The position numbers were made by a program, and so were the translations under genes. A DNA stretch of 64,000 nucleotides from an uncultured Paracoccaceae bacterium. Its GTDB lineage: Bacteria; Pseudomonadota; Alphaproteobacteria; Rhodobacterales; Rhodobacteraceae. The notes under the pieces are model-generated. The model saw only the letters and a program-made list of their open reading frames with translations, had not been told where the DNA came from and searched no databases. Location: contig CANMPD010000005.1 in the NCBI GenBank assembly GCA_947499635.1, positions 124,001 to 188,000 of the forward strand. The letters run 5' to 3'. Each line of letters begins with the position of its first letter. Within the stretch, counting starts at the first letter, position 1. This document shows positions 9,108-27,796 of the stretch, one piece after another.

Positions 9108-9249
9108 TTTCTCAGCAATCTCATCAGCGTTTGAGTGACATTCAAGTCACCCATATCTGCACCTCAAACAGACCCCACCGAACCAGAAAAATATTCAAAC
9201 ACCTCAAGCAGAAATGCAAAAAAAAGCGTCACATCAAGTGGAAACACGT

Positions 9250-9330: not shown

Positions 9331-9354
9331 GCAATAAAACTTTGGGAGAAACAT

Positions 9355-10917: not shown

Positions 10918-10934
10918 ACAACTGTAAAACCTAT

Positions 10935-10969
10935 TTGTTCCGGCACTGCCTCGTGCCCTGCCGGAACAA
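10935..10969 (+). terminator. Intra-operon hairpin between binding protein and permease genes
   Basis: TTGTTCCGGC (10935-10944) and GCCGGAACAA (10960-10969) pair perfectly and are followed by TTTCT. It is probably a partial terminator or mRNA-stabilising stem that raises binding-protein yield over the permeases. Confidence 0.65.
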
Positions 10970-10990
10970 TTTCTATTCAATCGGTGCCAC

Positions 10991-11953: not shown

Positions 11954-12897
11954 CCCATTCACACAACGACACAGACACCACCCCATCTAGACTGTCGCGC
12001 GCATGGCACAGCGATCTTGCATGGAAATTTCGCCACAGTCCAATTGCGATGCTGTCCATGTCAGTGACAGTTCTGCTTGTCCTGTCAGCAATATTTGCAC
12101 CGCTGATTGCACCGCATAACCCATTTGATCCGGGCAGCCTAAACCTGATGAACGGGTTTACCCCGCCGCTTACGCCCAATGCTTTTACCACAGATACGTT
12201 TATTCTGGGGACTGACGATCAAGGTCGGGATATTTTCTCGACCATTTTATACGGCATGCGCATTTCACTGTTTGTCGGTTTTGCCGCTGTGTCTTTGGGC
12301 ATGATCATCGGCATCACTCTGGGTCTGATATCTGGATACTTTGGCGGGATCGTCGATGCTGTGATTATGCGTATCGCAGACATTCAGCTGACGTTCCCTT
12401 CGATCCTTGTGGCCATGTTGATTTTCGGCGTTGCCAAGGGGTTCACTCCGCCGCAATACCGTGACGAAATGGCCATATGGGTCTTAATCATCGCCATCGG
12501 CCTGTCAGATTGGGTTCAATTCGCCCGTGTCGTGCGCGGGGCGACCCTGGTTGAAAAACACAAAGAATACGTCCAAGCTGCCCGCCTCATCGGGCGCAGT
12601 GCGACCGCGATCATCTTTAGCCATATCCTGCGCAACGTGATGTCGCCTGTGCTGGTCATCGCCACCATTTCGCTCGCCCTCGCGATTATAGCCGAGGCAA
12701 CCTTATCGTTCCTTGGTGTCGGCGCGCCGCCAACTCAACCCTCGCTGGGAACCTTGATCCGTATTGGGCAAGGGTTCCTCTTTTCTGGTGAGTGGTGGAT
12801 CTTATTCTTTCCCGCGGCAACACTTTTGATGCTGGCTCTTGCTGTAAATCTCATGGGGGATTGGTTGCGCGATGCGCTCAATCCAAAGCTCAAATGA
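11950..12897 (+). CDS. Peptide-type ABC transporter permease, DppC family
   Basis: A 315-residue partner permease. The N-terminal cytosolic tail and first helix precede APHNPFDPGSLNLMN; LGTDDQGRDIFSTILYGMRI is the diagnostic DppC motif. The ATPase-docking loop includes VQAARLIGRSATAIIFSHIL and the end is [13 protein letters not shown]. The start overlaps the DppB-type stop and its own stop overlaps the ATPase start (both ATGA), so translation of all three is coupled. Confidence 0.93.
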   Translation: MTHSHNDTDTTPSRLSRAWHSDLAWKFRHSPIAMLSMSVTVLLVLSAIFAPLIAPHNPFDPGSLNLMNGFTPPLTPNAFTTDTFILGTDDQGRDIFSTILYGMRISLFVGFAAVSLGMIIGITLGLISGYFGGIVDAVIMRIADIQLTFPSILVAMLIFGVAKGFTPPQYRDEMAIWVLIIAIGLSDWVQFARVVRGATLVEKHKEYVQAARLIGRSATAIIFSHILRNVMSPVLVIATISLALAIIAEATLSFLGVGAPPTQPSLGTLIRIGQGFLFSGEWWILFFPAATLLMLALAVNLMGDWLRDALNPKLK

Positions 12898-14597
12898 CCT
12901 TATTGAACATTGAAAACCTGACAGTTGAATACCCGTCTCGCCATGGGAGCTTCAAAGCCGTCTCTGGTGCCAACCTCGCACTCGAGCCCGGCGAAATTCA
13001 CGGACTGGTCGGAGAATCCGGTGCGGGAAAATCAACCGTTGGCGCGGCGATCCTTGGGCTGCTTGAGGCCCCAGGCCACATTTCCAGTGGCGAGATCACC
13101 CTGCGTTCGCGCGCAATTAGCGGATTAGACAGCGCAGCAATGCAGTCGTTGCGTGGCAAAACCATCTCGATGATTTTCCAAGATCCGCTCACATCGCTCA
13201 ACCCGCTGATCAAAGTCGGGGAACAGCTTACAGAGACGATCATCACCCATTTGGGTGTCTCGCAACAACAGGCTCATCAGCGTGCTCTTGATTTGCTAGA
13301 TCGTGTGGGCATTCCCGATCCAGCTCTGCGGCTCAACCAATTTCCACACCAATTCTCAGGCGGAATGCGCCAACGTGTGGTCATTGCCCTGGCCCTGTGT
13401 TCAGAACCCGACGTGATTATCGCAGATGAGCCCACAACCGCCTTGGATGTTGCAGTTCAGGCGCAAATTCTTGATCTGATCAAAGACCTCGCTGCCGAAC
13501 GCCAAGTGGGCGTCATCCTGATCACTCACGACATGGGTGTCATCGCGGATACAACCGACCGCGTCACCGTGATGTACCAAGGCCAAGTGGTCGAAACCGG
13601 GCCGACCAAAACCGTGATGGGCCAGCCACAACACCCATACACCCAATCGCTTATCGCTGCGGTGCCCCGCCCACAGGTGAAACTGAGACGGTTTTCGCAG
13701 GTCAGCTATGGAGGTCGCGACACTCGATTTGCAATCGAAGATCTGGCCCGCAACTGGCCCAAGGCGACACCCAGCGATGGCCCCTTGCTGAGCGTTCGCA
13801 ACCTCACCAAAAAATTCCCCATTGCCAAAAGCCTTATCCCCGGCAGGTCTAAGTGGTTGACCGCAGTTGATGATATCTCCTTTGATATCAACTCAGGAGA
13901 CGTGTTCGGCATCGTTGGTGAAAGCGGTTCTGGCAAATCCACAGTGGCGCGGTTGATCAGCGGGCTATACCCCCTGAACGGCGGCACCGTGCATTTTGAC
14001 GGAGCCCTTGTTAGCGACCCCAAAGATAAGGCCGCACAACAGAATTTTCGCCGCGACATTCAGATGATCTTCCAAGATCCCTATTCATCGCTCAATCCGC
14101 GTATGCGCGTTTTGGATATCATCGCAGAGCCCATCCGCCATCACACAACACGCAACAGCCACGACCTGACACCCCGCGTACACGAGTTGCTGGACCAAGT
14201 TGGGTTAGGAAAATCCGCCGCCGCCAAATACCCTCATGAATTTTCCGGTGGCCAGCGTCAGCGCATCTCAATTGCGCGTGCCTTGGCCACTCAACCCCGG
14301 TTTTTGATCTGTGATGAGCCAACATCCGCTTTGGATGTGTCTATTCAAGCCCAGATTTTGAACATCCTCAAAGATCTCCAAGATCACCTTGGCTTGACAC
14401 TGCTGTTCATCAGCCACGACCTGCCCGTAGTGCGGCAAATGTGCGATCGGGTGGCGGTGATGAAACAGGGGAAATTGTTAGAGCTGCAAGACACCCAAGC
14501 GCTCTTTACCACGCCAAAAACCGCCTATACCCAAGAACTGCTTGGCCTCATGCCACGTCTTGACGGGCTATCAACACAAGGGCTCGATCTGCGATGA
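12894..14597 (+). CDS. Fused double ABC ATPase of the second peptide-type transporter
   Basis: A 567-residue tandem ATPase. Domain 1: GESGAGKST near residue 40, signature [18 protein letters not shown]. Domain 2: GESGSGKST near residue 345, [18 protein letters not shown]. Each half ends with the [15 protein letters not shown] element of oligopeptide systems. The ATG at 12894 overlaps the permease stop; an earlier in-frame ATG at 12792 lies inside that permease and is rejected. It has the same fused architecture as the protein at 401-2047, so both importers belong to the subgroup with one double ATPase rather than separate D and F subunits. It overlaps the following GST gene by 4 bases. Confidence 0.93.
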
Positions 14598-15220
14598 TTA
14601 CACTATACGGCTATCGGTCGATTAATACTTTTAAAATCTTGATGCTGCTCTATGAAACCAAACAAGAGTTCAAATTCATCCCCATCAACATCCGCAAAGG
14701 CGAACAGCGCGAACCCGCGTTTCTGGCGCTAAACCCCGTAGGTCGTGTGCCTGTTCTGGTGGACGGCGACCTTACCCTGACCGAATCCAACGCCATTTTG
14801 CTGTACCTAACGCAAAAACTGTCATGGGGTTTGGAAAACCGCCCCGGCTATATCGAAACCGTAACCGCATGGTTGTTCTATCAGGCCTCAACCCAAGGGC
14901 CGTTTTTCGGCCAAGTTGAATACTGGACTCAATTCGCCAAGACCCCCAACCCCGAAGCCCTCGCGCATTACAAATCCATTGCCCATAAAACCATCGCATT
15001 GTTGGACAGCTATCTCAGCAAAACACCCTTTTTGTGTGGCGACACATTCAGCATTGTCGATATTGCCCATTTCGCATGGATCGACGAACACGCAGAACTC
15101 GGCCTCACCCTTGACGACGCCCCCCACACAAAACGCTGGTGGACCGAAGTCGCGGCGCGACAATCGGCCTCTCAAGCGCGTGACTTTATTGCTGAAACGC
15201 TGGGGAGCCGTCCAACCTAA
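14594..15220 (+). CDS. Glutathione S-transferase family protein
   Basis: A 208-residue GST. The thioredoxin-like N-terminal domain has the cis-Pro loop GRVPVLVD and the glutathione-contacting LTESNAILLYL at about residues 60-70; an all-helical C-terminal domain follows (FSIVDIAHFAWI is the N-capping box). The general look is of the YfcG/nu-like or beta-like bacterial classes. It is translationally coupled (ATGA) to the ABC ATPase, an unusual partner, and suggests that the imported compound is electrophilic or a glutathione conjugate, or needs thiol-dependent cleavage. Its 3-prime end overlaps the convergent gene on the minus strand by 35 bases. Confidence 0.88.
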   Translation: MITLYGYRSINTFKILMLLYETKQEFKFIPINIRKGEQREPAFLALNPVGRVPVLVDGDLTLTESNAILLYLTQKLSWGLENRPGYIETVTAWLFYQASTQGPFFGQVEYWTQFAKTPNPEALAHYKSIAHKTIALLDSYLSKTPFLCGDTFSIVDIAHFAWIDEHAELGLTLDDAPHTKRWWTEVAARQSASQARDFIAETLGSRPT

Positions 15221-16028
15221 ACCGAACACAGGCGCAATGTGCGATCTTTTCGATCCCACCCTGCGCCTCGCTGCGTCGCTTGTATAACGCCAACGTATCC
15301 TGCGTGCAGGCTGCACCAATTACGGATTCACCCTGTTCTATATTGCCAAAATAAAACACATCCCGACGCCGTACAGGCGACCAAGCTGTGTCACGTTCCA
15401 ACCGCACTTGGGCCTGATCAAGCAAGCGCGTGTAGCTTGGGAAATACAACAAACCCACCGCGTTGAAATCACTGCCAACGGCCGTGTATAGCTCTACTTG
15501 GTTCACAGGCGCAGATCTATCGGCGCGCAATTGCTTGGCCGTTGCCGCGGTCTCTTGGGCAAAGCTGTCGGGCGCAGATTGCAAAATCGGTATCAAATAA
15601 GGCGTCGCGCGGCTAACACTGGCATTCACACCCGTCTGTTGATGCACAACAAAGGTCGACACCAAACGAAACTGCGCGATTTCAATACCATCCAGCTCCA
15701 ACCTATGGTTGGACTGTATCCGACTACGCCCCCCTGACCATAGATTTGACCGCACACGCAGGCTCTGTCCCAGTTGCGCCAGATCAGGACGCAACTGTTC
15801 AAATTGCGTGGCACAAAACGCCGCGTACATCTGGCGCCCCTGACTGTCACGAAACACAGTAGTGCGCTGGCCAACTGCATCCGCAATCAGCTGCCAATGG
15901 ACATCACCCAGAAACTTAAGCCACCAATCCTCGGACAGCCCCTGCACCGCCAGATGCGCCATCCCCAGTGGGATATGCACCTCGCGGGCGATCTGTTCCG
16001 TCCTAAGTGCTGCCGGCCCAGCCATCAT
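15186..16028 (-). CDS. LnmK/Pnap_2097-like hot-dog protein linked to the Nit1C cluster
   Basis: A 280-residue protein that I match, from memory of the family, to the Pnap_2097 biosynthetic proteins related to LnmK (acyltransferase/decarboxylase with a double hot-dog fold). Supporting features are the opening IPLGMAHLAVQGLSEDWWLK, the GDVHWQLIADA segment, and a second half with LYFPSYTRLLDQAQ and RRDVFYFGNIEQGE. The start at 16028 (MMAGP) lies 2 bases after the flavoprotein stop, so it is the last gene of the nit operon; the in-frame ATG at 16070 would overlap that gene. Its last 35 bases overlap the convergent GST gene. The reaction is unknown; if LnmK-like it would act on an acyl-CoA or acyl-carrier substrate. 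The family call is moderately sure. Confidence 0.62.
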   Translation of the reverse strand: MMAGPAALRTEQIAREVHIPLGMAHLAVQGLSEDWWLKFLGDVHWQLIADAVGQRTTVFRDSQGRQMYAAFCATQFEQLRPDLAQLGQSLRVRSNLWSGGRSRIQSNHRLELDGIEIAQFRLVSTFVVHQQTGVNASVSRATPYLIPILQSAPDSFAQETAATAKQLRADRSAPVNQVELYTAVGSDFNAVGLLYFPSYTRLLDQAQVRLERDTAWSPVRRRDVFYFGNIEQGESVIGAACTQDTLALYKRRSEAQGGIEKIAHCACVRFRLDGSPAFQQ

Positions 16029-16030
16029 CG

Positions 16031-17299
16031 TCACGACGCAGCTCGCACTGTCTGTTTTGCTTGCGCGCAAATCGCATCAACCAAATAACGAGAGTCCTCG
16101 TCAATTCCCAAGAACCGACCCGAGCCCCAAGTGTTCAACCACCCAAGACCGATAAAGTAGAACCCGTCCTCCTGACACACACCACGCGTATATTGCGGGC
16201 GGCCATGATCATCAAAAACATCGACATCAATCCAGTTGTAATCTGGCCGAAAACCAATCGCCCACAAAATCGATGTAATTCCTGCCTTTTCACAATCGAT
16301 TTCGGTGATCTCTTGTGCAGGGCGCCATGCCTTTTCGAACTCTGGTTCTTTTGGGGCATCAATGTTGTTTTTGTCGATATGGGCGTCAATTGCCTGTCGA
16401 ATACCCAGATAACTTGCGTCCGCATCGTCTAGGTTCTTCTCAAGATCCGGTAAAAACTGCACCTTGGTCCCGGACATGCCGCTGACCGATCCATAAAGCG
16501 ATACACCTGCGTTTGCGAATTTACGCAGGTCAATTTCATGCCCGCCGTCGCGACCTGTCATATAGTGATTGGTCTTAGAAACCGCATGTACAGGGTTCGG
16601 ATGCTGGTCGATTGTGATGTGATAATGCCCCATCTCATACAGCCAATCGGTCGCATCACGTCCACGATACATGCGTGGCGACCGCGGCGCAGGGCCAACC
16701 GCCAGATGAACGTCACGCCCTTCGAGATGCATGTCTTCCATCAACTGCACACCAGACTGTCCAGTCCCCACGATCAACGTGGCCCCTTCCGGCATTTGGG
16801 CAGGACGGCGGTAATCAACGGAATGCATTTGCTTGATCGACGCATCCAGCTGGTCCGCATATGGGGGCACAATCGGTGCGTCATACCCGCCGGTGGCAAT
16901 CACCACCTGATCCGTCGTGTAATTGCCTTGGCTGCTGTCCACCAAATACCCGCCGCCGGGCCGTTTGGTGATCATCGTCACTTCGCAGTTTTCAACAATC
17001 GGCGGATTGAACGTTGCCGCAAAGGCATCGAGATAGTCGGTGATTTCCTCTTTCACCATAAATCCATCGGGATCATTGCCCTTGTAGGGGAAATTCGGCA
17101 GACGGCATTGCCAATTGGGCGTCACCAGACAAAAGGTGTCCCAGCGATTGACGCGCCACGAGTGAAATTTAGCGTGGCGTTCCAGAACCACATGGTCCAT
17201 TCCCGCCTGCGTCAGATAATAGCTGACCGACAGCCCTGCCTGTCCGCCGCCTACAATAACAACTGACTTTTCTTCGCGTGCAGTGATGGAAGTATTCAT
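16031..17299 (-). CDS. nitH: Nit1C flavin-dependent oxidoreductase (MSMEG_0569 family)
   Basis: A 422-residue FAD/NAD(P)H two-dinucleotide-binding oxidoreductase, resembling flavin monooxygenases. The FAD motif VVIVGGGQAGLSVSYYL is at 13-29; WRVNRWDTFCLVTPNW follows the first domain; a second GxGxxG, LIVGTGQSGVQL, lies near residue 165 for NAD(P)H. WAIGFRPDYNWID and GLGWLNTWGSGRFLGI near the end complete the fold. It is placed in the MSMEG_0569 family because of these segments and the invariant neighbours. AAGGA upstream supports the start at 17299. It is expected to oxidise the product of the nitrilase/radical SAM pathway; the chemistry is not known to me. Confidence 0.88.
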   Translation of the reverse strand: MNTSITAREEKSVVIVGGGQAGLSVSYYLTQAGMDHVVLERHAKFHSWRVNRWDTFCLVTPNWQCRLPNFPYKGNDPDGFMVKEEITDYLDAFAATFNPPIVENCEVTMITKRPGGGYLVDSSQGNYTTDQVVIATGGYDAPIVPPYADQLDASIKQMHSVDYRRPAQMPEGATLIVGTGQSGVQLMEDMHLEGRDVHLAVGPAPRSPRMYRGRDATDWLYEMGHYHITIDQHPNPVHAVSKTNHYMTGRDGGHEIDLRKFANAGVSLYGSVSGMSGTKVQFLPDLEKNLDDADASYLGIRQAIDAHIDKNNIDAPKEPEFEKAWRPAQEITEIDCEKAGITSILWAIGFRPDYNWIDVDVFDDHGRPQYTRGVCQEDGFYFIGLGWLNTWGSGRFLGIDEDSRYLVDAICAQAKQTVRAAS

Positions 17300-17309
17300 A
17301 GGGTCGTCC

Positions 17310-17588
17310 TTAAAAAATCGACAGACAGGTCACATCAGCTGGCGCATTAAAGGCGCGAGCTTTGCGTTCAATTTTGCCCAGCTGTGCATCAGCGCTGGTA
17401 CATCGATATCCGAATTTGGCCTCTACCCTCAGGCTGGCTTGCTCCAGCGCATTGCGACAACGCAGGAGAAAATCATCCAGTGGATATGTCGTGCCCGCAC
17501 TCAGAAAGTCGTGCACAATGGTTGATGGGGAATAGCACTCTTCCGTCTGGCCATCAGGCCAGCGAATGGTGAAACGGGTCTCAGGCAT
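17310..17588 (-). CDS. nitG: Nit1C small conserved protein (MSMEG_0570 family)
   Basis: A 92-residue protein beginning MPETRFTIRWPDGQTEECYS, with YPLDDFLLRCRNALEQAS in the middle and FGYRCTSADAQL after. This is the MSMEG_0570 'nitrogen starvation response' family found only in this cluster, as far as I recall. There is no catalytic motif; a small cytosolic accessory subunit is likely. GGAGG precedes the start, and its first 8 bases overlap the end of the AIR-synthase-like gene, so it is translationally coupled. Confidence 0.85.
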   Translation of the reverse strand: MPETRFTIRWPDGQTEECYSPSTIVHDFLSAGTTYPLDDFLLRCRNALEQASLRVEAKFGYRCTSADAQLGKIERKARAFNAPADVTCLSIF

Positions 17589-18567
17589 GAAGCGCCTCCG
17601 GTGAGCTTAAATTCAAATAGGGTGTGCGGGCATGATCCCAAAACAGCGCGGCCCCGTCGCGTCCGGTCAGATGAACCGCGCTGCCTTCGGTAATGTCACC
17701 GCAAGCCGTTGCGCAGACACCGTGATCGCCAAAGGCTTTGCACACGGCCTCGGCATTTTCGGCGGCAACCGACAACAAAAAGCCAAAGCTGGGAAAACTG
17801 CGCAACCACCGAGCCATATCCACGCCCTGCGGCTGAGGCAGCCCCTCGAGCTGGATGTTGATCCCAACCCCCGAGGCTTCGGCCAGCATCAAAGCCGTGC
17901 CCACAATACCACCTTGGCTGATATCTTTGCCCGACCGAACCAATCCGGCTTCGGCAAGATTTGGCAGGATTTCCATGTTTTTACGCAATGTACCAGGCGC
18001 TGTTGTCAGCGCAGCGTTCCAATTGTCAAACGGTTCGCGATAATTGCCATTCAGATCAATTGCGCAGATCAACACATCCCCCGGGCGCGCTGAAAAGCTA
18101 GAAATTACCTGCTTTGCGTGACCCAAGATCGACACTGCCAATTGCAGTTCTCCGGTGTTGAGGTTGGTGTGCCCGCCAACGATAGGCACACCATAGGCGC
18201 GCGCAGCTGCTTTCATTCCGGTCAGTACAGGCTGTGCCTGCTCCGCGTTTGGGGCCCAAATCGCATTGGTCACGCAACGTGGACGCCCCCCCATCGACAA
18301 GATATCCGAGATGTTGACCATCACACCGCACCAACCCGCAAACCACGGATCGGCCTGTACAAACGCATTTATGAACCCTTCGCAGGCAAACAGATCATAT
18401 CCATCTGCGGTTGGTAAAACGGCGCAATCATCCCCGGGCTGCCCTTCGCTTGTAGCCGTCAATCCAAGCGTCGCGGTGCTTTGGGCAATATCCAATTTAC
18501 CGCGGATGGACGGGTGCTCGCGCAACGCGCGCGCCATTTGGCGAACAGAGGCAGGCGATTTGCTCAT
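17581..18567 (-). CDS. nitF: Nit1C AIR-synthase-like protein (sll0787 family)
   Basis: A 328-residue protein of the PurM/SelD/ThiL-type ATP-binding superfamily. It has GDDCAVLPTADGYDLFACEG, a conserved GVMVNISDILSMGGRP segment that binds metal-ATP in PurM-like enzymes, GVPIVGGHTNLNTG, and SQGGIVGTALMLAEAS in the C-terminal half. Family members phosphorylate an amide or carboxylate oxygen to drive cyclisation or amination. The ATG at 18567 overlaps the GNAT stop (ATGA). The position in a fixed cluster suggests it activates the product made by the nitrilase and radical SAM steps; the true substrate is unknown. Confidence 0.88.
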   Translation of the reverse strand: MSKSPASVRQMARALREHPSIRGKLDIAQSTATLGLTATSEGQPGDDCAVLPTADGYDLFACEGFINAFVQADPWFAGWCGVMVNISDILSMGGRPRCVTNAIWAPNAEQAQPVLTGMKAAARAYGVPIVGGHTNLNTGELQLAVSILGHAKQVISSFSARPGDVLICAIDLNGNYREPFDNWNAALTTAPGTLRKNMEILPNLAEAGLVRSGKDISQGGIVGTALMLAEASGVGINIQLEGLPQPQGVDMARWLRSFPSFGFLLSVAAENAEAVCKAFGDHGVCATACGDITEGSAVHLTGRDGAALFWDHARTPYLNLSSPEALHA

Positions 18568-19112
18568 GACACCCTCCGCCGTGTAGACAGAGCTTTCCAT
18601 CCCGCCATCGGGTCAGTGATCGGTGGATAGGCGGCCAAATCGGCTTCCATCTCCATATGAGGGACGCCGTGTACCTCTATTTCATTCAAGGCAGTCCAAT
18701 GCAGGCGCTGGAACAACTTGACGTTTTGCATCTGAACTTGCGCCAAAAACCGGTCACAGCCACGGCCATGCGCCGTCGATACGGCGAGCCGGATCAGCTC
18801 GGCACCCAAACGTCCCATACGTCGGTGACTGTCTGCCACAGCCAGACGCGACCCCCGCCAGATACGCGGGCTTTCTTCGTGGATCCGCACGGTGCCCACC
18901 ACTTGATCCGCTTCGGAGGCAAAGGTGCTGATCGCAGCAAGCGGCATTGCGATATCGTCGATCGCATCGCGGTCATGACCAACAAAAATCTGCTGTTCAT
19001 CGACAAAGACCTTGCGCCGCAATTCTCGCACACCGTCAAGTTCCCAGGTCTGCGAGGCTGCACGGATAATGAAATCAGGGGATAAAAAGGCCCGTGGGCG
19101 ATGAATGCTCAT
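18564..19112 (-). CDS. nitE: Nit1C GNAT N-acetyltransferase (MSMEG_0567 / sll0786 family)
   Basis: A 182-residue GCN5-related acetyltransferase. It has the expected core: VDEQQIFVGHDRDAIDD early, VGTVRIHEESPRIWRGSRLAV (beta4-5 region), and the acetyl-CoA loop RRMGRLGAELIRLA (variant of Q/RxxGxG/A) near residue 105. It transfers an acyl group from CoA to an amine of an unknown intermediate. In many genomes this domain is fused or adjacent to the AIR-synthase-like protein, as here. It overlaps the neighbouring genes on both sides by 4 bases. Confidence 0.87.
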   Translation of the reverse strand: MSIHRPRAFLSPDFIIRAASQTWELDGVRELRRKVFVDEQQIFVGHDRDAIDDIAMPLAAISTFASEADQVVGTVRIHEESPRIWRGSRLAVADSHRRMGRLGAELIRLAVSTAHGRGCDRFLAQVQMQNVKLFQRLHWTALNEIEVHGVPHMEMEADLAAYPPITDPMAGWKALSTRRRVS

Positions 19113-20209
19113 GACACACGCAGTTTTTCATAGACCGACAACGCAGAGCACGCGCCGCATTTACCACACCCTGCCTTGATGCTCTCGGCACTCATACCTG
19201 CGCGCACGATCATTCCCGACAGCGGCTTTAAAATACTGGCCATAAAGTCAGAATTCGGCGCGGGATGGCTTTCCAGCGGCGTTCCGGATACGGGAACAAA
19301 TGGCACGACAAACGGGTACACCCCGATGTTGCACAGCTCTTGCGAGGTTTTTAAGATCGCCTCTGGGGTGTCACCAAGACCTGCAAGGATATAGGTCGAG
19401 ACTTGCCCACGGCCAAACACCTTAACGGCCGCCTTAAAGCTGGAGAAATATTTCTCTAGACTGACCTGCGCCTTGCCCGGCATGATACGGGCGCGCACCT
19501 CTGGAGTAACAGCCTCGAGGTGCATCCCCAATGTGTCCACACCTGCATTGAACATGCGCTCGTGCCAGATGTCATCTTCGGGCGGCTCACATTGTGCCTG
19601 TATCGGCAAGTCCACCACCGCTTTGATCGCTGCGGCACTGTCGACCATAACTGCCGCACCGCGATCTTTGCCAGCAGGCGTGCCGGTGGTCATAACCATA
19701 TGTTTGACGCCATCCAGCTCAACCGCAGCCTTGGCGACCTCGGCCAATTGCTGTGGTGTCTTATGGGCAATCGTCCGCCCCGCCGCCAAGGATTGGCCGA
19801 TAGAACAAAACTGACAGGTCTTTTTGCGACTCTCGTAGCGAATACACGTCTGCAAGACGGTTGTCGCCAGCACGTCTTTGGAGTGCAGCGTCGCGATCTT
19901 GTTGTACTCCACACCATCTGCGGTTTTCAGATCATAGAACTTAGGCCGCGATGGAAACCGCACTTTTCCCAGAGAAACCCCAGATTTCGTCACCTCTGCC
20001 AGACCACCTGCGTCAGGAGCCTGCACCAAATAGGGACTGTCAAAGGCGGGTGCCGTGTGTACTGGCACCATGACCGTCGTATTCCCAACAGTCACCGCCT
20101 TGTGGTCCGTGGGCCCTGCCCCGCCACGACGACTTTCTAGGCCCGCGCTTGGGTCAACCAGACGCATCCCACGCGTTTGTAATTCATTGATCAGCTCGGC
20201 TTCAGACAT
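19109..20209 (-). CDS. nitD: Nit1C radical SAM protein (MSMEG_0568 family)
   Basis: A 366-residue radical SAM enzyme. The cluster-binding cysteines are Cys122, Cys132 and Cys135 ([18 protein letters not shown]), spaced CX9CX2C rather than the usual CX3CX2C. The barrel contains [14 protein letters not shown] and [20 protein letters not shown], and the C-terminus has a further CGKCGAC motif (Cys348, 351, 354) that could bind an auxiliary cluster. It resembles the biotin-synthase/lipoyl-synthase branch in layout. It is proposed to perform the key carbon-centred step of the Nit1C pathway; the substrate is unknown. The start at 20209 overlaps the nitrilase stop by 8 bases. Confidence 0.88.
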
Positions 20210-21182
20210 CTTCGATCTCCACTTCGGGGGTTACGGTCAGGTCTTGGGCGTTTTCAATGCGTCGAACCGTCGACGCAGGGCGGGCATCATGAACCAGATG
20301 CAGCAATTCAGGGCGGGCATAATGGCCCACGCTGTCCATCATACGTTTGCGTTTGGTCACCAGCTTCATGTCCAGATCCGCAATCAAGATCCCCTCCCCT
20401 TCGGTCAAAGGCGGCACAACATGACGCCCCTCAGGAGAAATGATGCAGGTCATGCAACCGTCGCGCAGACCTTTTTGCAGCTTGGGGTCATCCGAGACGC
20501 TGTTGATTTGCTCGTCGGTCAACCACCCCGTCGCGTTGACGACAAAGGCACCGGACTCTAGCGCGTGGTGACGCATGGTGACCTCAATCTGTTCACCAAA
20601 GATTGGCCCCACCAAACTTCCTGGGAATTGCGCCACATGAATTTCTTCGTGCTGCGTCATCAAAGCATAGCGGGCAAGCGGATTGTAATGCTCCCAACAG
20701 GCCAACGCGCCAATGCGACCCACTTTGGTCTCAACCACCTTCAGGCCAGCGCCATCGCCCTGCCCCCAGATCATGCGCTCATGATAGGTTGGTGTAATCT
20801 TGCGTCGTTTTAGCGCCAAAGACCCATCGGCATCAAAAACCAGCTGCGTGTTAAACAGCGATCCTTCGTCGCGCTCGTTTACGCCCAGAACAACAACGAC
20901 ACCATGTTTGCGTGCCGCATCAGCCACGGCTTCGGTTTCAGGCGATGGCACAACGACGGCTTCGTTATAAAGGCGCAGGTGCTCTTTGCCCTGCAACATC
21001 GGCGGCAGCACGAATGAGAAATACGGATAATATGGCACAAAGGTTTCGGGAAAAACGATCAGCTCTGCGCCCTTTTGGCTGGCCTCGGCAATGGCATTCA
21101 AAACCCGCTCAATCGTGCCGGCTCGGCTGGTCAAATCTGGAGCAATCTGAATTGCAGCAGCACGGACGATGTTATCTGACAT
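20202..21182 (-). CDS. nitC: Nit1C nitrilase (sll0784 / Nit6803 family)
   Basis: A 326-residue nitrilase-superfamily enzyme. The catalytic triad is visible as Glu46 (FPETF), Lys128 ([12 protein letters not shown]) and Cys162 ([11 protein letters not shown]); CWEHYNP is typical of true nitrilases, which turn R-CN into R-COOH plus ammonia. A second helper Glu is in PTYHER. The start MSDN at 21182 has GAAGGAAG at a suitable distance; longer in-frame starts (21197, 21254) lack one. The cyanobacterial relative is known for aliphatic and aromatic nitriles, but inside this cluster the natural substrate is undetermined; Nit1C genes have been linked to use of cyanide as nitrogen source. This is family knowledge, not shown by the sequence. 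Confidence 0.92.
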
Positions 21183-21278
21183 CGGATCTTCCTTCATAGC
21201 GGGTATTATATCTGGCACGAGGCGGGCATAGGGATAAGGCAGCCCGCGCAACAAAGCGCCACGCGGGCCAGCACAAAA

Positions 21279-21761
21279 TTACATGGTCCACGTGTCCAAG
21301 ATCACTGCGTTGTCACGCTCGTGCAGCAGCTTCAGATCCAAAACATCCTGTGGTGCAATTGGTGTGATGCCTGGCAACAAGGATGGCTCGCCGTGACCCA
21401 TCAGCATTTGCAGCGCAAAACGGCAGGCGTAAACTTTGCCGCCCTCTTTCATGAACTTGGTCAGGTTCGCAGCATAGTTCTGCGCGCCGGGGAACGCTTC
21501 GTCACCCAAGGTTGGGAAACCGCGCTGTACACCCAAGGATACACCGGGGCCGTACAACAGAACGGATGTCTCAAAACCTTTGCGTTGCAGACGGATGGCT
21601 TGCAAAATGTTTACCAAACCGATGGAGCCTTCAAAGGCAACGGTGTGGAAAGTCACAAGGGCTTTCTGGCCCTCTTCAGCCTGAACATCTTCAAAGACTT
21701 TCTCTTCGTAGTTTACAAAGAAATCACCGTCTTTATGGGCTGGTGTTGTCACTTCGGGCAT
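21279..21761 (-). CDS. nitB: Nit1C conserved protein, DsrE-like (MSMEG_0572 / sll0783 family)
   Basis: A 160-residue protein, first gene of the nit operon. [36 protein letters not shown] and [18 protein letters not shown] give a DsrE/DsrF-like Rossmann layout with a cysteine in the usual place. It belongs to the MSMEG_0572 'nitrogen starvation response' family seen only with this cluster, as far as I recall. GGAG lies 8 bases before the ATG. The name in cyanobacteria comes from induction by nitrogen lack. The biochemical role is unknown. Confidence 0.86.
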
Positions 21762-21830
21762 TGCGTTCTCCTGTCAATCGCATGTCTCTGCCTTGAGCTA
21801 AGCGATGCGAAAACGAGGACGCCATTGATA

Positions 21831-21992
21831 CATACAATATTGCATTCAATCTAATTGTATTGATTGTATGAATATGCATATAAATTGGACAAATGCCCAA
21901 TGATAAGGCCACGAATTCGAGAAATAAGCGTAATTGAGCAGAAAATTACCTTTCATCCGCTAGATAGATTGTAGGGATTTAAGGCATACAAT
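21831..21992. promoter_or_regulatory. ATACAAT / ATTGTAT repeats in the nit-mocR divergent promoter
   Basis: The octamer CATACAAT occurs at 21831-21838 and 21985-21992, its complement ATTGTATG at 21863-21870, and ATTGTAT also at 21854-21860 (a direct repeat 9 bases from the next). All lie in the 264-bp divergent region between nitB and the MocR-type regulator. MocR/GabR-type proteins typically bind short direct repeats such as ATACCA in such regions, so these are the best candidate operators. Binding is inferred. Confidence 0.6.
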
Positions 21993-22025
21993 ACGCAACA
22001 CCCGCGCAAACATTCGAGATATACG

Positions 22026-23390
22026 ATGGAAAACTGGCATCAAAGAATCACACAATCCGGCAAACCCCGCTATCTTGCGATTGCGGATTGCATTGCACAG
22101 GACATGAAAGACCGGGTTCTACTCCCCGGGGATCGTCTGCCTGCGCAGCGGCGTTTGGCGGATATAATAGGCGTCGATTTCACCACTGTGTCGCGCGGGT
22201 ATTCCGAAGCCATAAACCGAGGGCTCGTGAAATCTCACGTAGGCCGTGGGACATTTGTTCTGCCCCAACAAAGCCTCAGCAATACCAGTGACGAACGCCG
22301 CGCGCTGGCGAATGATCTAACCATGAACGCGCCACCAGAACCCACCGATCCAGAACTGTTGAATCGTATGCGCGCCGGTCTCTCTGCGGTCTCTGATGAT
22401 CTGGTGCATCTGCTGCGTTATCAGAACCCGATTGGCGGAGACATCGACAAAGAGGCCGCCTCGATCTGGTTGTCCATGCGCGGCTTGGTTCCAAATCTTA
22501 ACAGGGTGGCCGTGACTCCAGGGGCTCACGCAACGATGCTGGCCATTTTGACCATCCTCGCCCGTCCGGGTGACTGTATTCTATGCGAAGACATTACATA
22601 TGCAGGGTTCAAAAAAATCGCGGCGCAGCTCAGACTAAAATTGGTCGGGTTGCCGATGGATGACGATGGTATTCTTCCCGAGGCATTAGATGCTGCAATT
22701 GCCGAACACAGTCCGAAAGCCTTATATCTGAACCCGACCCTTCACAATCCAACCACGATGATCGTACCCAAAGGGCGCAGGTTACAGATTGCACAGGTCA
22801 TGAAACGACATGCCCTGCCCCTGATCGAAGACGACGCCTATGGGTTTGTCCTCCCCGACGCGCCGCCGCCTATGGCGACCTATGCGCCCGACCTCACATG
22901 GTATATTGGCGGATTGGCAAAATGTATCGGCGCAGGACTGCGACTGGCCTATTCCGTCGCACCAACTGCACGGGCGAACTTTGCTCTCGAAGACAGCATC
23001 CGCGCGGTCTCTGTGATGGCCTCTCCACTTTCAATGGCGCTCACCACACGTTGGGTACTAGACGGAACCGCCGATCAAATCCGCCGCTTCATCCGTAAAG
23101 AAAGCGCCATCCGCCAAGACATTGCCAAAGACAGCATCACCGAAACCGACTTTGTGGCACACACCCATGCATTCAACATCTGGCTGCGCCTCCCTCAAGG
23201 CGTGACCTGCGCAGCATTGATGTCACATATGTCCAACCACGCTATCGGCATCTCGCCCGAAAGCGCCTTTCGCACTGCGGGTGATCAGGAACGTTATGTG
23301 CGAATTTGCCTTGGCGGCCAAATTCAACGCGACGCACTGCCGCAAACCCTGTCACACTTGAACAATCAAATATGGCAATTATCTCGATAA
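22026..23390 (+). CDS. MocR-family regulator (GntR-type HTH fused to PLP aminotransferase domain)
   Basis: A 454-residue fusion. Residues 15-78 form the winged helix (LPAQRRLADIIGVDFTTVSRGY, ending HVGRGTFVLP). The rest is a fold-type I aminotransferase domain with NPTLHNPTTMIVP, IEDDAYGFVLPD and the probable PLP lysine Lys299 in GGLAKCIGAGLRLAY. Such proteins sense an amine or PLP adduct rather than catalyse. It is transcribed away from the Nit1C operon across 264 bases containing ATACAAT repeats, which makes it the likely regulator of that operon and of itself. The gene ends 20 bases from the convergent rep gene. Confidence 0.9.
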   Translation: MENWHQRITQSGKPRYLAIADCIAQDMKDRVLLPGDRLPAQRRLADIIGVDFTTVSRGYSEAINRGLVKSHVGRGTFVLPQQSLSNTSDERRALANDLTMNAPPEPTDPELLNRMRAGLSAVSDDLVHLLRYQNPIGGDIDKEAASIWLSMRGLVPNLNRVAVTPGAHATMLAILTILARPGDCILCEDITYAGFKKIAAQLRLKLVGLPMDDDGILPEALDAAIAEHSPKALYLNPTLHNPTTMIVPKGRRLQIAQVMKRHALPLIEDDAYGFVLPDAPPPMATYAPDLTWYIGGLAKCIGAGLRLAYSVAPTARANFALEDSIRAVSVMASPLSMALTTRWVLDGTADQIRRFIRKESAIRQDIAKDSITETDFVAHTHAFNIWLRLPQGVTCAALMSHMSNHAIGISPESAFRTAGDQERYVRICLGGQIQRDALPQTLSHLNNQIWQLSR

Positions 23391-23409: not shown

Positions 23410-24717
23410 TCAGCCAACAAAGGCGTCAGGTTCAAGCTCGTGCCAAAAAGCGATGATATCACTGGCAACCAGCGCAGAACGCCAACCATGTTGACGGAAA
23501 TGTTCTCGATCCAAGTCATGTTCCAGCCGGGTCATGAACAATCGTTTATCGGCATCTCGCTGGGTCGGGTTTCGTCGCGAAACCAAATCTTGAACAATAT
23601 CCAACTGCTGTGCTCGCTCTCTCCGTTGCGCAGCGCGGTCGTCAAACGCAGCACTTTCCTGCACTTGTTCCATACGCCGCGCAGCCGCGATCGCATCTAA
23701 TTTGGCCTGGTCCTCCGCGGACACCTTAACCCCTGTATTCTCTGCTGCGTAATTCCCTTTGATTGCAGCCCGCAAATAGCCAACCGTCGACTTCACATCA
23801 CCTTGCCCTGCGACATAGTTCAGCTTTTCTTGCACATAGTCTGGCCCATGCTCCGTAATCCACTGACGCGCCAATCGATCAGCGACCCCTTGCCCACGCA
23901 AAGCTTTGTAAACAGGTAAGCCGCGGACCCCATCACCATCATCGATTTCAAACATTGTCATTTGTGGATTTTCACGGATCAAAAACCGGATTTCGCTCAC
24001 TGAGCGTCCTTTTTTGCGAATTTCGGGCTCAATATGAATATCTGAATTTTTATTCACCTCAGCCACAGCAGGTTTAATGATCTTGGCATTCAGATGCTTG
24101 TAACTTGTATAGTAAGCAGATTCATCGACGCCCATGAGCTTGCGAAAAATATCCAGTGACCACCACCCTGTGCTACGCGTGCGCACAAAGCGATAGCAAT
24201 TTTCGTATAGTGCCAAACCATGCCCTGATGAGAAATTACGTTGGATGTGAACATTGATCAGCGCAAAAATTTTGGGATCATGCAACTTTTGCGCCAAAGC
24301 TGGGGAATACGCATATTCGCAAATCCCGTTCTTAAGTGTCGCATAAGATAAAAGTGCTGAAACACCCCATTCCTGATGGCCTTGCTCATCCAACATATCC
24401 CATTCGGCCACTGTCTCGGCCAAGGCCCGCAAACTGCCGCGCAGAGTGTCAAAATCATTTGAGTTATATCCGACCATCATCGCAAGTGTCCGCGCATCAA
24501 TTGAATGGTTTTTCGCGGTGGTTAACGTGTCATATGCGTTCAACAGCAACACGTTTGAAAGCTTGCGTTGAAGCAGCGTCAACTTACCGCTGATATGAAT
24601 TGCGGCAACATTCTTTTTCACCGTCTCGCGCGTAAGCGCGCCGGTCAGACGATCCGGGTCAAATACCTCTTGAGAGCTTTTGACGAGGCTCGGGTCTTTG
24701 TGTTCCATTGTCGCCAT
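23410..24717 (-). CDS. Plasmid replication initiator, RepB/Rep_3 type
   Basis: A 435-residue initiator of the Rep_3-like (RepB) superfamily found on Rhodobacterales plasmids. It has the double winged-helix region: LTLLQRKLSNVLLLNAYDTL near residue 50, YSPALAQKLHDPKIFALINV, the diagnostic RTRSTGWWSLDIFRKLMGV with YKHLNAKIIKPAVAEVNKN, then IRFLIREN. A C-terminal extension rich in Gln/Arg (AAQRRERAQQLDIVQDLVSR) follows. It should bind iterons and open the origin. It is divergent from parAB, with a 638-bp non-coding region between them that contains the repeats. A parS-like site lies inside the gene at 23569-23583. The start at 24717 is the longest; Met4 is an alternative, and no strong RBS decides it. 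Confidence 0.85.
   Translation of the reverse strand: MATMEHKDPSLVKSSQEVFDPDRLTGALTRETVKKNVAAIHISGKLTLLQRKLSNVLLLNAYDTLTTAKNHSIDARTLAMMVGYNSNDFDTLRGSLRALAETVAEWDMLDEQGHQEWGVSALLSYATLKNGICEYAYSPALAQKLHDPKIFALINVHIQRNFSSGHGLALYENCYRFVRTRSTGWWSLDIFRKLMGVDESAYYTSYKHLNAKIIKPAVAEVNKNSDIHIEPEIRKKGRSVSEIRFLIRENPQMTMFEIDDGDGVRGLPVYKALRGQGVADRLARQWITEHGPDYVQEKLNYVAGQGDVKSTVGYLRAAIKGNYAAENTGVKVSAEDQAKLDAIAAARRMEQVQESAAFDDRAAQRRERAQQLDIVQDLVSRRNPTQRDADKRLFMTRLEHDLDREHFRQHGWRSALVASDIIAFWHELEPDAFVG
23569..23583. promoter_or_regulatory. parS-like palindrome 1 (GTTTCG-TCG-CGAAAC), inside rep
   Basis: GTTTCGTCGCGAAAC, perfect 6-bp arms and 3-base centre, within the 3-prime part of the rep gene. The identical 15-mer is found at 26037-26051 inside parA, and a one-base variant at 25221-25235. 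Proximity to parAB suggests ParB-binding centromere sites. Confidence 0.62.
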
Positions 24718-25235: not shown

Positions 25236-25355
25236 ATAAGGCTTTGCATCTAACACACATAAGAAGCAGCCTTTTTCCTAGTAAAATAAAACAATGTGCT
25301 CTAGTTTAAGGGATATAAGCGATAAACACGCACATTGTCTGAGGCAGAGCATAAA

Positions 25356-26726
25356 ATGTCGACAACGCCCCCCCCGCCATATTTCAATCTGGATCCCAAA
25401 GCTGCGGCTGAAAAATTGCCCGATCCCATACAAACAACCCGTTTCGCAAAGGCCGCGGCTTTTTGCGCGAAAGGTCGCGAAGATCTTGCACGGCGCGGAT
25501 ATGCACCGGATGGTGAAAAGCGTCTGCGGAAGTTTTCTATATGGGAAATCACCAAATATTTGATCCCTGTTGCCGCCGCACATCTACGTCGTGTCTTGAA
25601 GGCAAACCCTGAACTGCCCCAAGGCGAAGGGGACAGTGGGTCAAAGTGGTTTACTTTAGAAGAGGTCCTTATCTTACGGCAACACTTTGCCAACGAGGGT
25701 GTCTCTACCAAAGAGTATTTGCCCTACCGGCCTCAGGGGCAACAAGCTAAAGTCACAGCTGTTGCCAATTTCAAAGGTGGCGTTGGCAAAACCTCAACCG
25801 CGGCGCATTTGGCCATGTCGGCGGCTTTGGACGGCTATAAAGTTCTCGTTATTGACTTGGATTCCCAAGGTTCCATGACCTCGATTTTAGGAGGTAAGGT
25901 TGACGACGAATGGAGCACCGTCTTTCCGTTGGTCGCAAAGGATTATGCCAAAGCCGTTGTCGCCGAGAATAAGGTGCGTGCAGCGTCGGGACAGGTTGAA
26001 ATTCCGCTGGATGAAACCTTGCAAGAAGCGCTACGGGTTTCGTCGCGAAACGTGATTCAAAATACGCATTGGCCAAATATTGATCTGATCGGTGCGCAAT
26101 TAAATTTGTACTGGGCCGAGTTTCAAATCCCTGTGTGGCGCATGGGATTGCGCAGTTGGCCATTGTGGGATGCATTGACCAATTTTCTCGAGGATGAGGG
26201 GATTTTGGATGACTATGACATCGTCTTCTTAGACACGCCTCCGGCACTTGGGTATTTGACAATTAATGCGTTGGCGGCTGCAGATATTTTGCTGGTTCCT
26301 TTGGGTGCCTCGTTTCTCGAGTTCGACTCAACAGGGCGGTTTTTTGACATGCTCTATTCGACGTTTGCCAGTATTGAAGAGGGGGAAAACGTTGCGCAGC
26401 GTGCGGCGGGTTTACCTGAAATTAAGTTCGAATGGGATGTTGTTCGTGCCCTGATCACTCGGTTTGATGCGAGCCAACAGACCGATATGGCCAATGTTAT
26501 CCAAGCCTATTTCGGCGATTTTATGAATGCTTATCGTCAGGATGTCACGGCCTTGGTTGGTCAGGCCGGTGAGCAGGTGAATGGGATTTATGAGGCTGAT
26601 TACCGCGATTTCAACCGTGAAACCTATGTCCGTGGACGCGAGACATTTGACCGAACCTATGCAGAATTCAAAGAGCTTTTAATCGGCAGTTGGTGGCGTG
26701 ATGTTCAGATGGAGGAGACTGAGTGA
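25356..26726 (+). CDS. parA: Plasmid partition ATPase ParA
   Basis: A 456-residue type Ia ParA. An N-terminal DNA-binding helix-turn-helix region (KFSIWEITKYLIP...WFTLEEVLILRQHF, about 59-111) precedes the ATPase domain. That domain has the deviant Walker A KGGVGKTS at 140-147, DLDSQGSMTSIL, and FLDTPPALGYLTINAL (Walker B). The protein moves ParB-bound plasmid copies and, with the N-terminal domain, usually represses its own operon. The ATG at 25356 follows GAGGCAG at 8 bases and is preferred over an in-frame TTG at 25335. A parS-like site sits within the coding region at 26037-26051. The stop overlaps parB (TGATG). Confidence 0.93.
   Translation: MSTTPPPPYFNLDPKAAAEKLPDPIQTTRFAKAAAFCAKGREDLARRGYAPDGEKRLRKFSIWEITKYLIPVAAAHLRRVLKANPELPQGEGDSGSKWFTLEEVLILRQHFANEGVSTKEYLPYRPQGQQAKVTAVANFKGGVGKTSTAAHLAMSAALDGYKVLVIDLDSQGSMTSILGGKVDDEWSTVFPLVAKDYAKAVVAENKVRAASGQVEIPLDETLQEALRVSSRNVIQNTHWPNIDLIGAQLNLYWAEFQIPVWRMGLRSWPLWDALTNFLEDEGILDDYDIVFLDTPPALGYLTINALAAADILLVPLGASFLEFDSTGRFFDMLYSTFASIEEGENVAQRAAGLPEIKFEWDVVRALITRFDASQQTDMANVIQAYFGDFMNAYRQDVTALVGQAGEQVNGIYEADYRDFNRETYVRGRETFDRTYAEFKELLIGSWWRDVQMEETE
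26037..26051. promoter_or_regulatory. parS-like palindrome 3 (GTTTCG-TCG-CGAAAC), inside parA
   Basis: The same 15-mer as at 23569-23583, embedded in parA codons (VSSRNV region). Conservation of an exact palindrome within a coding sequence argues for selection on DNA binding rather than chance. Confidence 0.62.
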
Positions 26727-27796
26727 TGGCAAAACGTAGACGGCTGATCGCCCCTGACACATCTGAGTTGAATGCAATCGAAGAAGAGTTCGACGTCAAG
26801 CCCGGCGTGAACCCTTTTGAAAACACTCAAAGCACGGTGCCACCGATTGCCAAAGTCTCGGCCGAGGCTGCACAAGCGCACGGACAGGCCAATATGGTTG
26901 ATCGCGTTGCTATGGCGAAAGATCAGAAGGATGCCGAAAATTGGCGTGCTGCAGAAGCGGGAGGGCGTGCGGTTCGTTTGATCCCACTGGACCAAATTGA
27001 GCGCGAATATCTGCGTCGTGATCGGATGGGGCTGGATGAGGACGAACTGCAAGAGCTGATGGCTTCGGTTTTGGAGCATGGCTTGCGCAGCCCAATCGAA
27101 GTGGCACAGTTTGATGCTGGATACGGTTTGATTTCGGGCTATCGCCGCTTAGAAGCTGTGGTGCGTCTGGCGACCGAGGGTAAAATCACAGACACTACAA
27201 TTGCGGCCTTTGTGCGTAATGGCGAAGACAGTGCGTTTGCTTATGTTTCGATGGTCGAAGAAAACGAGCTGCGGTCGAATCTGACACCTTATGAACGTGG
27301 GCGCATCGCTGTCTTAGCAGTGGGGCAGGGCGTGTTTGAAACTGTCGAAGAGGCCGTTGACCAGCTGTATGCCGCGGCGTCCAAGGCAAAACGTTCCAAG
27401 GTTCGCAGCTTTGCCGCCGTTCACGAGGCACTGGGCGATATGTTGTGTTTTCCCAGTCAGATGTCTGAAAAATTGGGACTGAAGCTTGCGGCTGTTCTGC
27501 GAGCAGGCGGGCAGGGGCCTTTGCGTATCGCGCTTGCAGGGACCGTGCCGATGACCTTGAAAGAGGAAACCGCGGTGCTGGAAAAGGCGCTGCAAGAGCA
27601 CGAAACACCCAAAGATAACAGTCGAGGGGGACGGCCCAAAGAGGTTGTTAAGCTGGATGGTGGTTACTTGACGCTGGGCGGCAAAATGACCGCCGAAGTC
27701 AGCGCACGGGGTTTGCGAATTGATCTGAAAGGCTATGATTTCAGCGCGCGCGAAGCACAGGATTTGATGGATAAAATCCGAGAGTTTCTGAAATAA
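26726..27796 (+). CDS. parB: Plasmid partition protein ParB
   Basis: A 356-residue ParB/RepB-family DNA-binding CTPase. The N-terminal domain has IPLDQIEREYLRRD, LMASVLEHGLRSPIEV, GLISGYRRLEAV (GxxR nucleotide motif) and VEENELRSNLTPYERG (ENxxR motif), followed by a helix-turn-helix central domain and a C-terminal dimerisation stretch after GGRPKEV. The ATG at 26726 shares a base with the parA stop. It should bind the GTTTCG-N3-CGAAAC palindromes. A hairpin terminator follows at 27807-27836. Confidence 0.92.
   Translation: MAKRRRLIAPDTSELNAIEEEFDVKPGVNPFENTQSTVPPIAKVSAEAAQAHGQANMVDRVAMAKDQKDAENWRAAEAGGRAVRLIPLDQIEREYLRRDRMGLDEDELQELMASVLEHGLRSPIEVAQFDAGYGLISGYRRLEAVVRLATEGKITDTTIAAFVRNGEDSAFAYVSMVEENELRSNLTPYERGRIAVLAVGQGVFETVEEAVDQLYAAASKAKRSKVRSFAAVHEALGDMLCFPSQMSEKLGLKLAAVLRAGGQGPLRIALAGTVPMTLKEETAVLEKALQEHETPKDNSRGGRPKEVVKLDGGYLTLGGKMTAEVSARGLRIDLKGYDFSAREAQDLMDKIREFLK

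Follow-up and report, generated by a model that had tools for sequence, protein, structure and literature searches.

The eighth position of the Nit1C gene cluster as a predicted, interchangeable source of a propionyl thioester

The stretch of DNA analysed here, referred to as the window (64 kb, G000:C5:124001-188000, on a 229,727-base contig), comes from an uncultured Paracoccaceae bacterium and contains at 15186-23390 a complete Nit1C cluster with all of its genes at the coordinates and on the strands given below. The seven-gene Nit1C cluster is already known, and what is new is the result for the place directly after its last gene, here called position 8, which in the window is occupied by a gene for a Pnap_2097/LnmK-family protein, the final gene of what looks like one operon. 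With a probability of roughly 0.58, we favour the reading that position 8 is an interchangeable module that would supply a propionyl thioester, probably to the GNAT acyltransferase of the cluster, and that a MocR-type regulator would act on the cluster through ATTGTATG boxes. A wider reading, in which Nit1C would be a pathway to an N-propionylated or propionyl-derived metabolite under nitrogen starvation, with supply modules swapped according to the gaps in the core metabolism of each host, is put forward only tentatively. Every chemical step in these readings is predicted from protein families.

The position-8 gene of the window (15186..16028, minus strand) encodes a double hot-dog protein that scores above the cut-offs of TIGR04099 (187.8 bits, cut-off 125) and TIGR04098 (184.3 bits, cut-off 100). 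Its open reading frame (ORF) reaches a TTG at 16070, and the ATG at 16028 lies 2 bases past the flavoprotein stop. The AlphaFold model, which was built on 50 sequences and has a predicted local distance difference test (pLDDT) score of 91.1, is consistent with a double hot-dog fold like that of LnmK, and its top seven matches in the PDB are all LnmK entries, with template modelling (TM) scores of 0.67-0.69 and 17-18% identity. The residues H58, W59, Y82, N149, R154 and N203 (numbered from 16070) are invariant in 50/50 sequences. The tyrosine aligned with Tyr62 of LnmK, which we take to be the catalytic residue there, and an asparagine of the loop that leads into the second long helix show no variation in the same 50 or in the 61 sequences of a wider alignment; which asparagine is catalytic in LnmK was read off the alignment and not taken from the literature. 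For LnmK, use of an asparagine on a loop similar to that of MadA has been stated (PMC8666670, drawn on here in excerpt, as are the other papers cited), and a title in the reference list of the same paper names LnmK as specifying (2R)-methylmalonyl-CoA. The window protein is therefore like LnmK, the bifunctional acyltransferase/decarboxylase of leinamycin biosynthesis, in its profile scores, its modelled fold and the retained tyrosine and loop asparagine, and unlike it in the low identity over that fold and in its setting within Nit1C.

The neighbours of the LnmK-like gene point to its likely substrate. A link with methylmalonyl-CoA mutase was first noticed on annotated Burkholderiales plasmids, where the mutase gene overlaps the preceding LnmK-like gene by 4 bases and follows LnmK in all six loci fetched, and it was then tested on a draw of 398 Burkholderiaceae genomes. 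TIGR04099 is matched in 62 of these, of which 58 neighbourhoods were fetched; the four left out were G1064, G1068 and G1263 (partial, below cut-off) and G1404 (match split in two), and at least one of the 58 is not independent of the plasmid picks, as G1335 is the same as L132. The Nit1C flavoprotein gene is the next profiled gene upstream of LnmK in 57/58 loci, and the mutase gene is the next one downstream in 56/58, in one case ~1.3 kb away; of the two exceptions, one lies at a contig end with its mutase on another contig, and the other, G1098, is without any mutase. Counted by genome, 57 of the 58 LnmK-positive genomes have a mutase (over the cut-off in 54 of the 58), which in 56 is the cluster copy; 56 of the 57 have a single copy, and one has a second, broken-looking copy. 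Two cluster mutases scanned directly scored 955 and 990.4 bits against an equivalog cut-off of 876, and the B12-binding domain is present. By comparison, a mutase was found in 6 of 56 LnmK-negative Burkholderiaceae genomes, which we selected from the 336 draw genomes without a TIGR04099 match, and five of these six belong to one genus; within the six genera that also hold LnmK-positive genomes, it was found in 1 of 38 LnmK-negative ones. All 19 LnmK-positive alphaproteobacteria, the genome of the window included (C1:520090), encode an above-cut-off mutase on a contig other than that of the LnmK-like gene. This is most simply read as a need of the LnmK-like protein for methylmalonyl-CoA, so that hosts which produce this compound in any case would keep the gene alone and hosts which do not would carry the mutase along with it; the product of methylmalonyl-CoA mutase is the (2R)-methylmalonyl-CoA isomer. 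A mutase and decarboxylase pair of this kind, which leads from succinate to propionyl-CoA, is ScpA/ScpB (Sbm/YgfG) of E. coli, from which Nit1C would differ in its LnmK-type hot-dog decarboxylase and in the cluster that holds it.

In the Pantoea, Klebsiella and two Acetobacter plasmid loci, position 8 is occupied instead by a gene for an AMP-forming acyl-CoA ligase. Three of these four ligases were scanned, and the best match of each is propionate-CoA ligase (Acetobacter ascendens 514.7, Pantoea 502.3 and Klebsiella 443.5 bits), which leads acetate-CoA ligase (448.4, 424.4 and 354.3 bits, respectively) by 66 to 89 bits. In addition, the stretch HWWQTETGW of the A. ascendens ligase is also present in 5gxd, its nearest chain in the PDB and presumably a PrpE; acetyl-CoA synthetase has DTWWQTETGG at that point. 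Plasmid records with the ligase number 373 for Klebsiella and 30 for Escherichia and equal the nitrilase counts, the totals being compared and not record by record. Among 404 ligase matches, 311 are less than 60% identical to the Pantoea ligase. An AMP-binding gene after the flavoprotein gene in L111 was not counted as PrpE-like, its match being weak (7e-20). In Acetobacter oryzoeni (L145:11656-18924), cytochrome bd-type oxidase genes follow the cluster beside the ligase, and the AIR-like and glycosyltransferase genes are unannotated, with two profile matches each, as if split.

The three arrangements, an LnmK-type decarboxylase, a mutase with LnmK, or a propionate-ligase-like protein, would all end in a propionyl thioester. 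In the window, the substrate for decarboxylation by the LnmK-like protein would be (2R)-methylmalonyl-CoA from the mutase encoded elsewhere in the host genome. In the Burkholderiaceae, which are mostly without a host mutase, the travelling mutase would lead from succinyl-CoA to methylmalonyl-CoA and on to propionyl, and in enterobacteria and Acetobacter the propionate-CoA-ligase-like protein would serve instead. The one obvious predicted consumer of propionyl in the cluster is the MSMEG_0567-family GNAT acyltransferase (NitE; 18564..19112, minus strand; TIGR04045 222 bits, cut-off 68.45), which has a second match, to the N-acyl amino acid synthase family FeeM (PF21926 32.5 bits, cut-off 27). 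This enzyme would be the likely acceptor step, so that a propionyl group would be present in the Nit1C product or in an intermediate on the way to it; the remaining structure would be made or modified, when nitrogen is scarce or cyanide is present, by the nitrilase, the flavoprotein and the radical SAM and AIR-like enzymes. MadA of E. coli, in which a GNAT domain is fused to a hot-dog malonyl-acyl carrier protein decarboxylase, may serve by analogy as a precedent for the pairing; the two activities are used together there as two domains of one protein, whereas Nit1C has them as separate genes, and the GNAT domain of MadA is not needed for decarboxylation (PMC8666670).

The occupancy of position 8 was followed through four sets of loci, all scanned with profiles built from the window proteins: 80 named loci, which are the best 80 of 570 relatives and hence near relatives of the window; a family draw of 12 loci (12/295 genomes over the radical-SAM cut-off, the window's own included), six of which repeat named loci; a phylum draw of 15 loci (16/398 genomes over the same cut-off, its own included); and 20 hand-picked plasmid loci. 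All seven Nit1C genes are present in 78/80, 11/12, 14/15 and 18/20 of these loci, respectively. The canonical order is kept in all 121 complete clusters (115/115 without six duplicates) and in all 55 complete Burkholderiaceae clusters, which excludes chance. A divergent MocR gene is found in 78/80, 12/12, 14/15 and at least 13/20 loci, and an LnmK-like gene directly after the flavoprotein gene in 49/80, 7/12, 2/15 and 10/20. The distance limits applied make some of these counts too low: the MocR gene of L132 failed the limit, that of L139 and of L145 is co-directional and not divergent, and the sequence of L135 ends before MocR, with its LnmK ~1.3 kb past the flavoprotein. The comparison of order and regulator across relatives, which had been proposed with the original prediction, thus upheld both, and because the divergent regulator and the LnmK-like gene are so frequent among near relatives, the window is a widespread alphaproteobacterial form and not an oddity. 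In the genus of the window, the LnmK family occurs in 9 of 18 genomes.

Several loci depart from this pattern. The Gemmobacter fulvus plasmid (L137:6549-10199) holds a remnant with MocR, MSMEG_0572 and a two-piece LnmK match, and no profile match was found in this interval for the six genes expected between MSMEG_0572 and LnmK. In Methylocystis iwaonis (L016) the cluster is rearranged, with nitrilase to AIR-like and LnmK on one strand, MSMEG_0572 and the FAD oxidoreductase on the other, and a phosphosulfolactate-synthase gene nearby. Outside Nit1C, Pnap_2097-family proteins were seen in two loci (L014 and L013): in Thalassospira, where an acyl carrier protein and AMP ligases are encoded in the same region, and in a polysaccharide region of Roseobacter litoralis, where the match is one portion of a larger protein. 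Recurrent neighbours beyond position 8 were also sought, and when flanking ORFs were compared all against all, only generic groups emerged, scattered over either side and either strand; a DUF983 gene that recurs near some alphaproteobacterial loci was not built on, since it lies on either side.

The divergent gene of the window (22026..23390, plus strand) encodes a MocR-type regulator with a GntR DNA-binding domain and an aminotransferase-like domain (PF00392 and PF00155). Its best match is EhuR, at 398.2 bits against a cut-off of 480, and it is therefore described as MocR-like without a named subfamily. The regulatory region between this gene and Nit1C (21762..22025) contains the ATTGTATG box three times without mismatch, at 21831, 21863 and 21985, and no other exact copy is present in the window. 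Among the intergenic regions of 114 loci with a divergent MocR gene, 88 contain ATTGTATG and 67 contain two or more copies, with copies near both divergent genes. The box is 512 times as dense in these intergenic regions (185 copies in 33.8 kb) as in the rest of these loci (24 copies in 2.24 Mb). The boxes are therefore a candidate MocR operator, and MocR would bind them and control both promoters.

Sigma54 sites of the TGGCAC type separate the loci further. None was found in the window, and among the 114 loci 84 have the box alone, 24 have the sigma54 site alone, four have both and two have neither, so that the site stands without the box in 24 of the 28 loci having it; all 20 glycosyltransferase-bearing loci have the site. 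The sigma54-only loci are L011, L015, L089, L091, L092, L095, L096, L114, L117, L119-L121, L123-L127, L129-L133, L138 and L143, those with both are L116, L118, L122 and L141, and L128, a further locus without MocR, has neither box nor sigma54 site. We read this as a promoter type that may have been switched between lineages. One Acinetobacter locus has a sigma54-interacting regulator beside the cluster and no box; a gene of the pyridoxal phosphate-dependent aminotransferase family 8 kb off does not match the MocR profile. In Pseudomonas, the gene divergent from Nit1C is nitA, for a sigma54-dependent regulator (PMC11049912, PMC8567248), unlike the MocR-type regulator of the window. A MocR-type gene divergent from a nitrilase-containing cluster is known from cio-nit4 of Pseudomonas pseudoalcaligenes, where loss of mocR makes the cluster constitutive; that cluster holds the nitrilase Nit4 and not Nit1C (PMC8567248).

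A number of observations weigh against the proposed supply of propionyl. On the chemical side, no carrier protein was found among the ten proteins scanned, the flanks lying outside that search, which is also a difference from LnmK; the GNAT has no direct tie to propionyl; and G1098 is an LnmK-positive Burkholderiaceae genome that does without a mutase. The position-8 ligases fall short of the cut-offs for PrpE (827 and 955 bits) and are classed as PrpE-like only, so that their propionate specificity is only a lead. Moreover, the Klebsiella ligase copy (L143:12625-14124) is shorter by ~57 residues (499 vs 556) and may be inactive. With regard to distribution, position 8 is empty in 28/80 named, 3/12 family, 13/15 phylum and 4/20 plasmid loci, and an eighth gene is not mentioned in the excerpted account of the cyanide-using Pseudomonas (PMC11049912), so that a dedicated supply would not be needed everywhere. 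On the radical-SAM tree, the state of position 8 changes 15 times by parsimony (77 rows scored, four dropped), with at least six changes forced by well-supported branches, and the window's nearest radical-SAM relatives are without its position-8 gene; the state is nevertheless more clustered than in shuffles (15 changes vs a mean of 22.3). Against the nearest copy within the genus, the one close pair compared, identity is only 51% for the LnmK-like protein and 90% for the radical SAM protein. Given its absence from many clusters, its six or more switches on the tree and, in that one close pair, its faster evolution than the core, position 8 looks like an accessory supply and not like the heart of the pathway. 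Finally, the exact ATTGTATG is missing in 26 of the 114 MocR loci; a variant, GATTG[C/T]AT, is present in 10 of these 26, and one common box for all loci is not claimed.

Among the alternatives, the one that survives best, though we regard it as rather doubtful, is that Nit1C would make a redox-active or sulfur-bearing small molecule that keeps the NADPH pool reduced, the acyl group being mere tailoring. The first protein of the cluster, of the MSMEG_0572/Sll0783 family (NitB; 21279..21761, minus strand; TIGR04044 273.8 bits, cut-off 109.85), is DsrE-like, having been placed in the DsrE family (PMC6039565) and given a YchN-like fold (PMC1199592). The MSMEG_0568-family radical SAM protein (NitD; 19109..20209, minus strand; TIGR04043 586.7 bits, cut-off 303.7) has, besides its C-x9-C-x2-C motif, a second cysteine cluster, C-terminal C-x2-C-x2-C, and C122, C132, C135, C348, C351 and C354 are invariant in five sequences. 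The gpr cluster of M. smegmatis, which is induced by GlnR under nitrogen starvation, raises NADPH/NADP (PMC6039565), and in a Synechocystis sll0783 mutant the pool does not shift towards NADPH (PMC3901256). However, the published accounts of Nit1C, as excerpted, name no product and the NADPH effect may be indirect; such a molecule is also compatible with a supply of propionyl and does not exclude it.

It is unlikely, in our view, that the window holds an ordinary Nit1C for cyanide or nitrile assimilation with the LnmK-like gene as a loosely attached passenger that has no role in the pathway. Such an account can draw on Pseudomonas, in which nitBCDEFGH is needed for growth on cyanide and Nit1C proteins are induced with a cyanide-containing residue (PMC11049912, PMC8567248), and on the frequent absence and fast evolution of position 8. 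It does not explain why LnmK follows the flavoprotein gene in 57/58 Burkholderiaceae loci with the mutase next in 56/58, why a ligase for the same kind of thioester replaces LnmK at the same place, or why the active-site residues of the LnmK-like protein are invariant. Moreover, the Nit6803-family nitrilase (NitC; 20202..21197, minus strand; TIGR04048 554.7 bits, cut-off 502.6; ORF up to a TTG at 21254, with ATGs at 21197 and 21182) would by itself need no radical SAM, AIR-like or GNAT partners. A catabolic salvage, in which position 8 would pass on to central metabolism the propionate, or a related acid, that the nitrilase and its partners had freed from nitriles, is improbable: nitrilases do free carboxylic acids from nitriles and a propionate-CoA ligase would activate freed propionate, but LnmK and the mutase would compete for one substrate in a catabolic route whereas they would run in series for supply, no carboxylase lies between or beside them in the annotated loci, and the GNAT, AIR-like and radical SAM enzymes are left unexplained. 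The supply of a propionyl thioester from position 8 is thus preferred, and the small-molecule biosynthetic reading of the original prediction has been strengthened by the follow-up.

The other genes of the window cluster lie on the same minus strand. They are those for the sll0787-family AIR-synthase-like protein (NitF; 17581..18567; TIGR04049 428.5 bits, cut-off 321.3; AIRS/AIRS_C domains), the MSMEG_0570-family small protein (NitG; 17310..17588; TIGR04042 117.5 bits, cut-off 79.85) and the MSMEG_0569-family flavin-dependent oxidoreductase (NitH; 16031..17299; TIGR04046 614.4 bits, cut-off 498.35). The order MSMEG_0572, nitrilase, radical SAM, GNAT, AIR-like, MSMEG_0570, flavoprotein on one strand, and the LnmK-like gene last with a divergent MocR-type regulator, had been recognised beforehand from the sequence. 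Coordinates and profile scans bear this out, and the proteins do not belong to unrelated families, since all seven as well as the Pnap_2097/LnmK protein score above their curated NCBIfam cut-offs. One label has to be corrected, in that the AIR-like protein, which had been called ATP-grasping, is of the PurM/SelD/ThiL/HypE kind and not an ATP-grasp protein by profile scans. Overlaps of 4-8 bases had also been claimed for most junctions, and this is only just right: four of seven overlap by 4 or 8 bases (nitrilase/radical SAM 8, radical SAM/GNAT 4, AIR-like/0570 8, and GNAT/AIR-like 4 if the AIR-like gene, with an ORF up to 18600, starts at the ATG at 18567). The 0570/flavoprotein junction is a 10-base gap, the 0572 and nitrilase genes are spaced, and the LnmK-like gene stands 2 bases past the flavoprotein stop if it starts at 16028. 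NitG has a confident AlphaFold model (pLDDT 94.8), whose fold search against the PDB gave no match at E 0.001 (best E 0.75), and its fold may be one not seen before.

In gene families, order and orientation, the window is like the known Nit1C clusters (PMC1199592; PMC11049912; gpr, PMC6039565). The seven genes, their order and a glycosyltransferase inserted in some lineages were described by Podar et al. 2005 (PMC1199592), who found the cluster spread over several phyla, and marine picocyanobacteria also carry it (PMC10119275). In some of the relatives compared here, the glycosyltransferase gene follows the AIR-like gene and precedes the 0570 gene, in agreement with that description (PMC1199592). 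The window cluster has no glycosyltransferase and, unlike known Nit1C, has an eighth gene of the LnmK family. In the open-access literature, no published account was found of an eighth gene or a MocR pairing of Nit1C, and no paper on Pnap_2097 by name or on LnmK together with a nitrilase. Neither 'propion' nor 'methylmalonyl' occurs in PMC11049912 or PMC9716671, and in two of the papers that name both nit1C and MocR the passages on MocR concern the cio-nit4 cluster. Its Nit1C setting may already have been noticed by the curators who gave TIGR04099 its name.

Next to the cluster lie genes for a Rep3-type replication initiator (23410..24717, minus strand; PF01051, PF21205), which shares 78-80% identity with initiators from plasmids of Tritonibacter, Ruegeria and Phaeobacter (some of these plasmids measure 0.8-1.26 Mb), and for the partition proteins ParA and ParB (25335..27796, plus strand). 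With such genes, and with no tRNA gene in the 228,000 bases of the contig scanned, the contig is very probably extrachromosomal. The original prediction took the location beside a plasmid origin as a sign of mobility. In support of mobility, besides the plasmid-type initiator and the lack of tRNA genes, the identity of the radical SAM protein does not track that of RpoB: the species closest by RpoB (95, 94 and 94%) have radical SAM proteins of 86, 80 and 79% identity, and a member of another genus with RpoB at 90% has one of 89%. The rep/par neighbours of the window are in none of 130 other fetched stretches (duplicates included) at E 1e-25. The nearest same-genus copy by radical SAM (G016, 90%) sits on the contig that holds rpoB, so Nit1C occurs on both kinds of replicon. 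On the Pantoea, Klebsiella and Acetobacter oryzoeni plasmids, replication genes unrelated to those of the window are found ~4-8 kb from Nit1C. On the far side of the window cluster (7872-15220), an amidase gene, a family-5 solute-binding ABC importer and a glutathione-S-transferase-like gene lie on the opposite strand and point at the cluster's 3' end. The importer is of the oligopeptide type, with the glutathione-type GsiB as its best match, below the cut-off. These genes were excluded from the cluster; the importer and the transferase were checked and are not consistently shared.

Nit1C touches cyanide use, nitrogen starvation and NADPH balance, and it is present on hundreds of enterobacterial plasmid records. 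A candidate acyl donor would offer a concrete handle on the Nit1C pathway, and the candidate operator a handle on what switches the cluster on.

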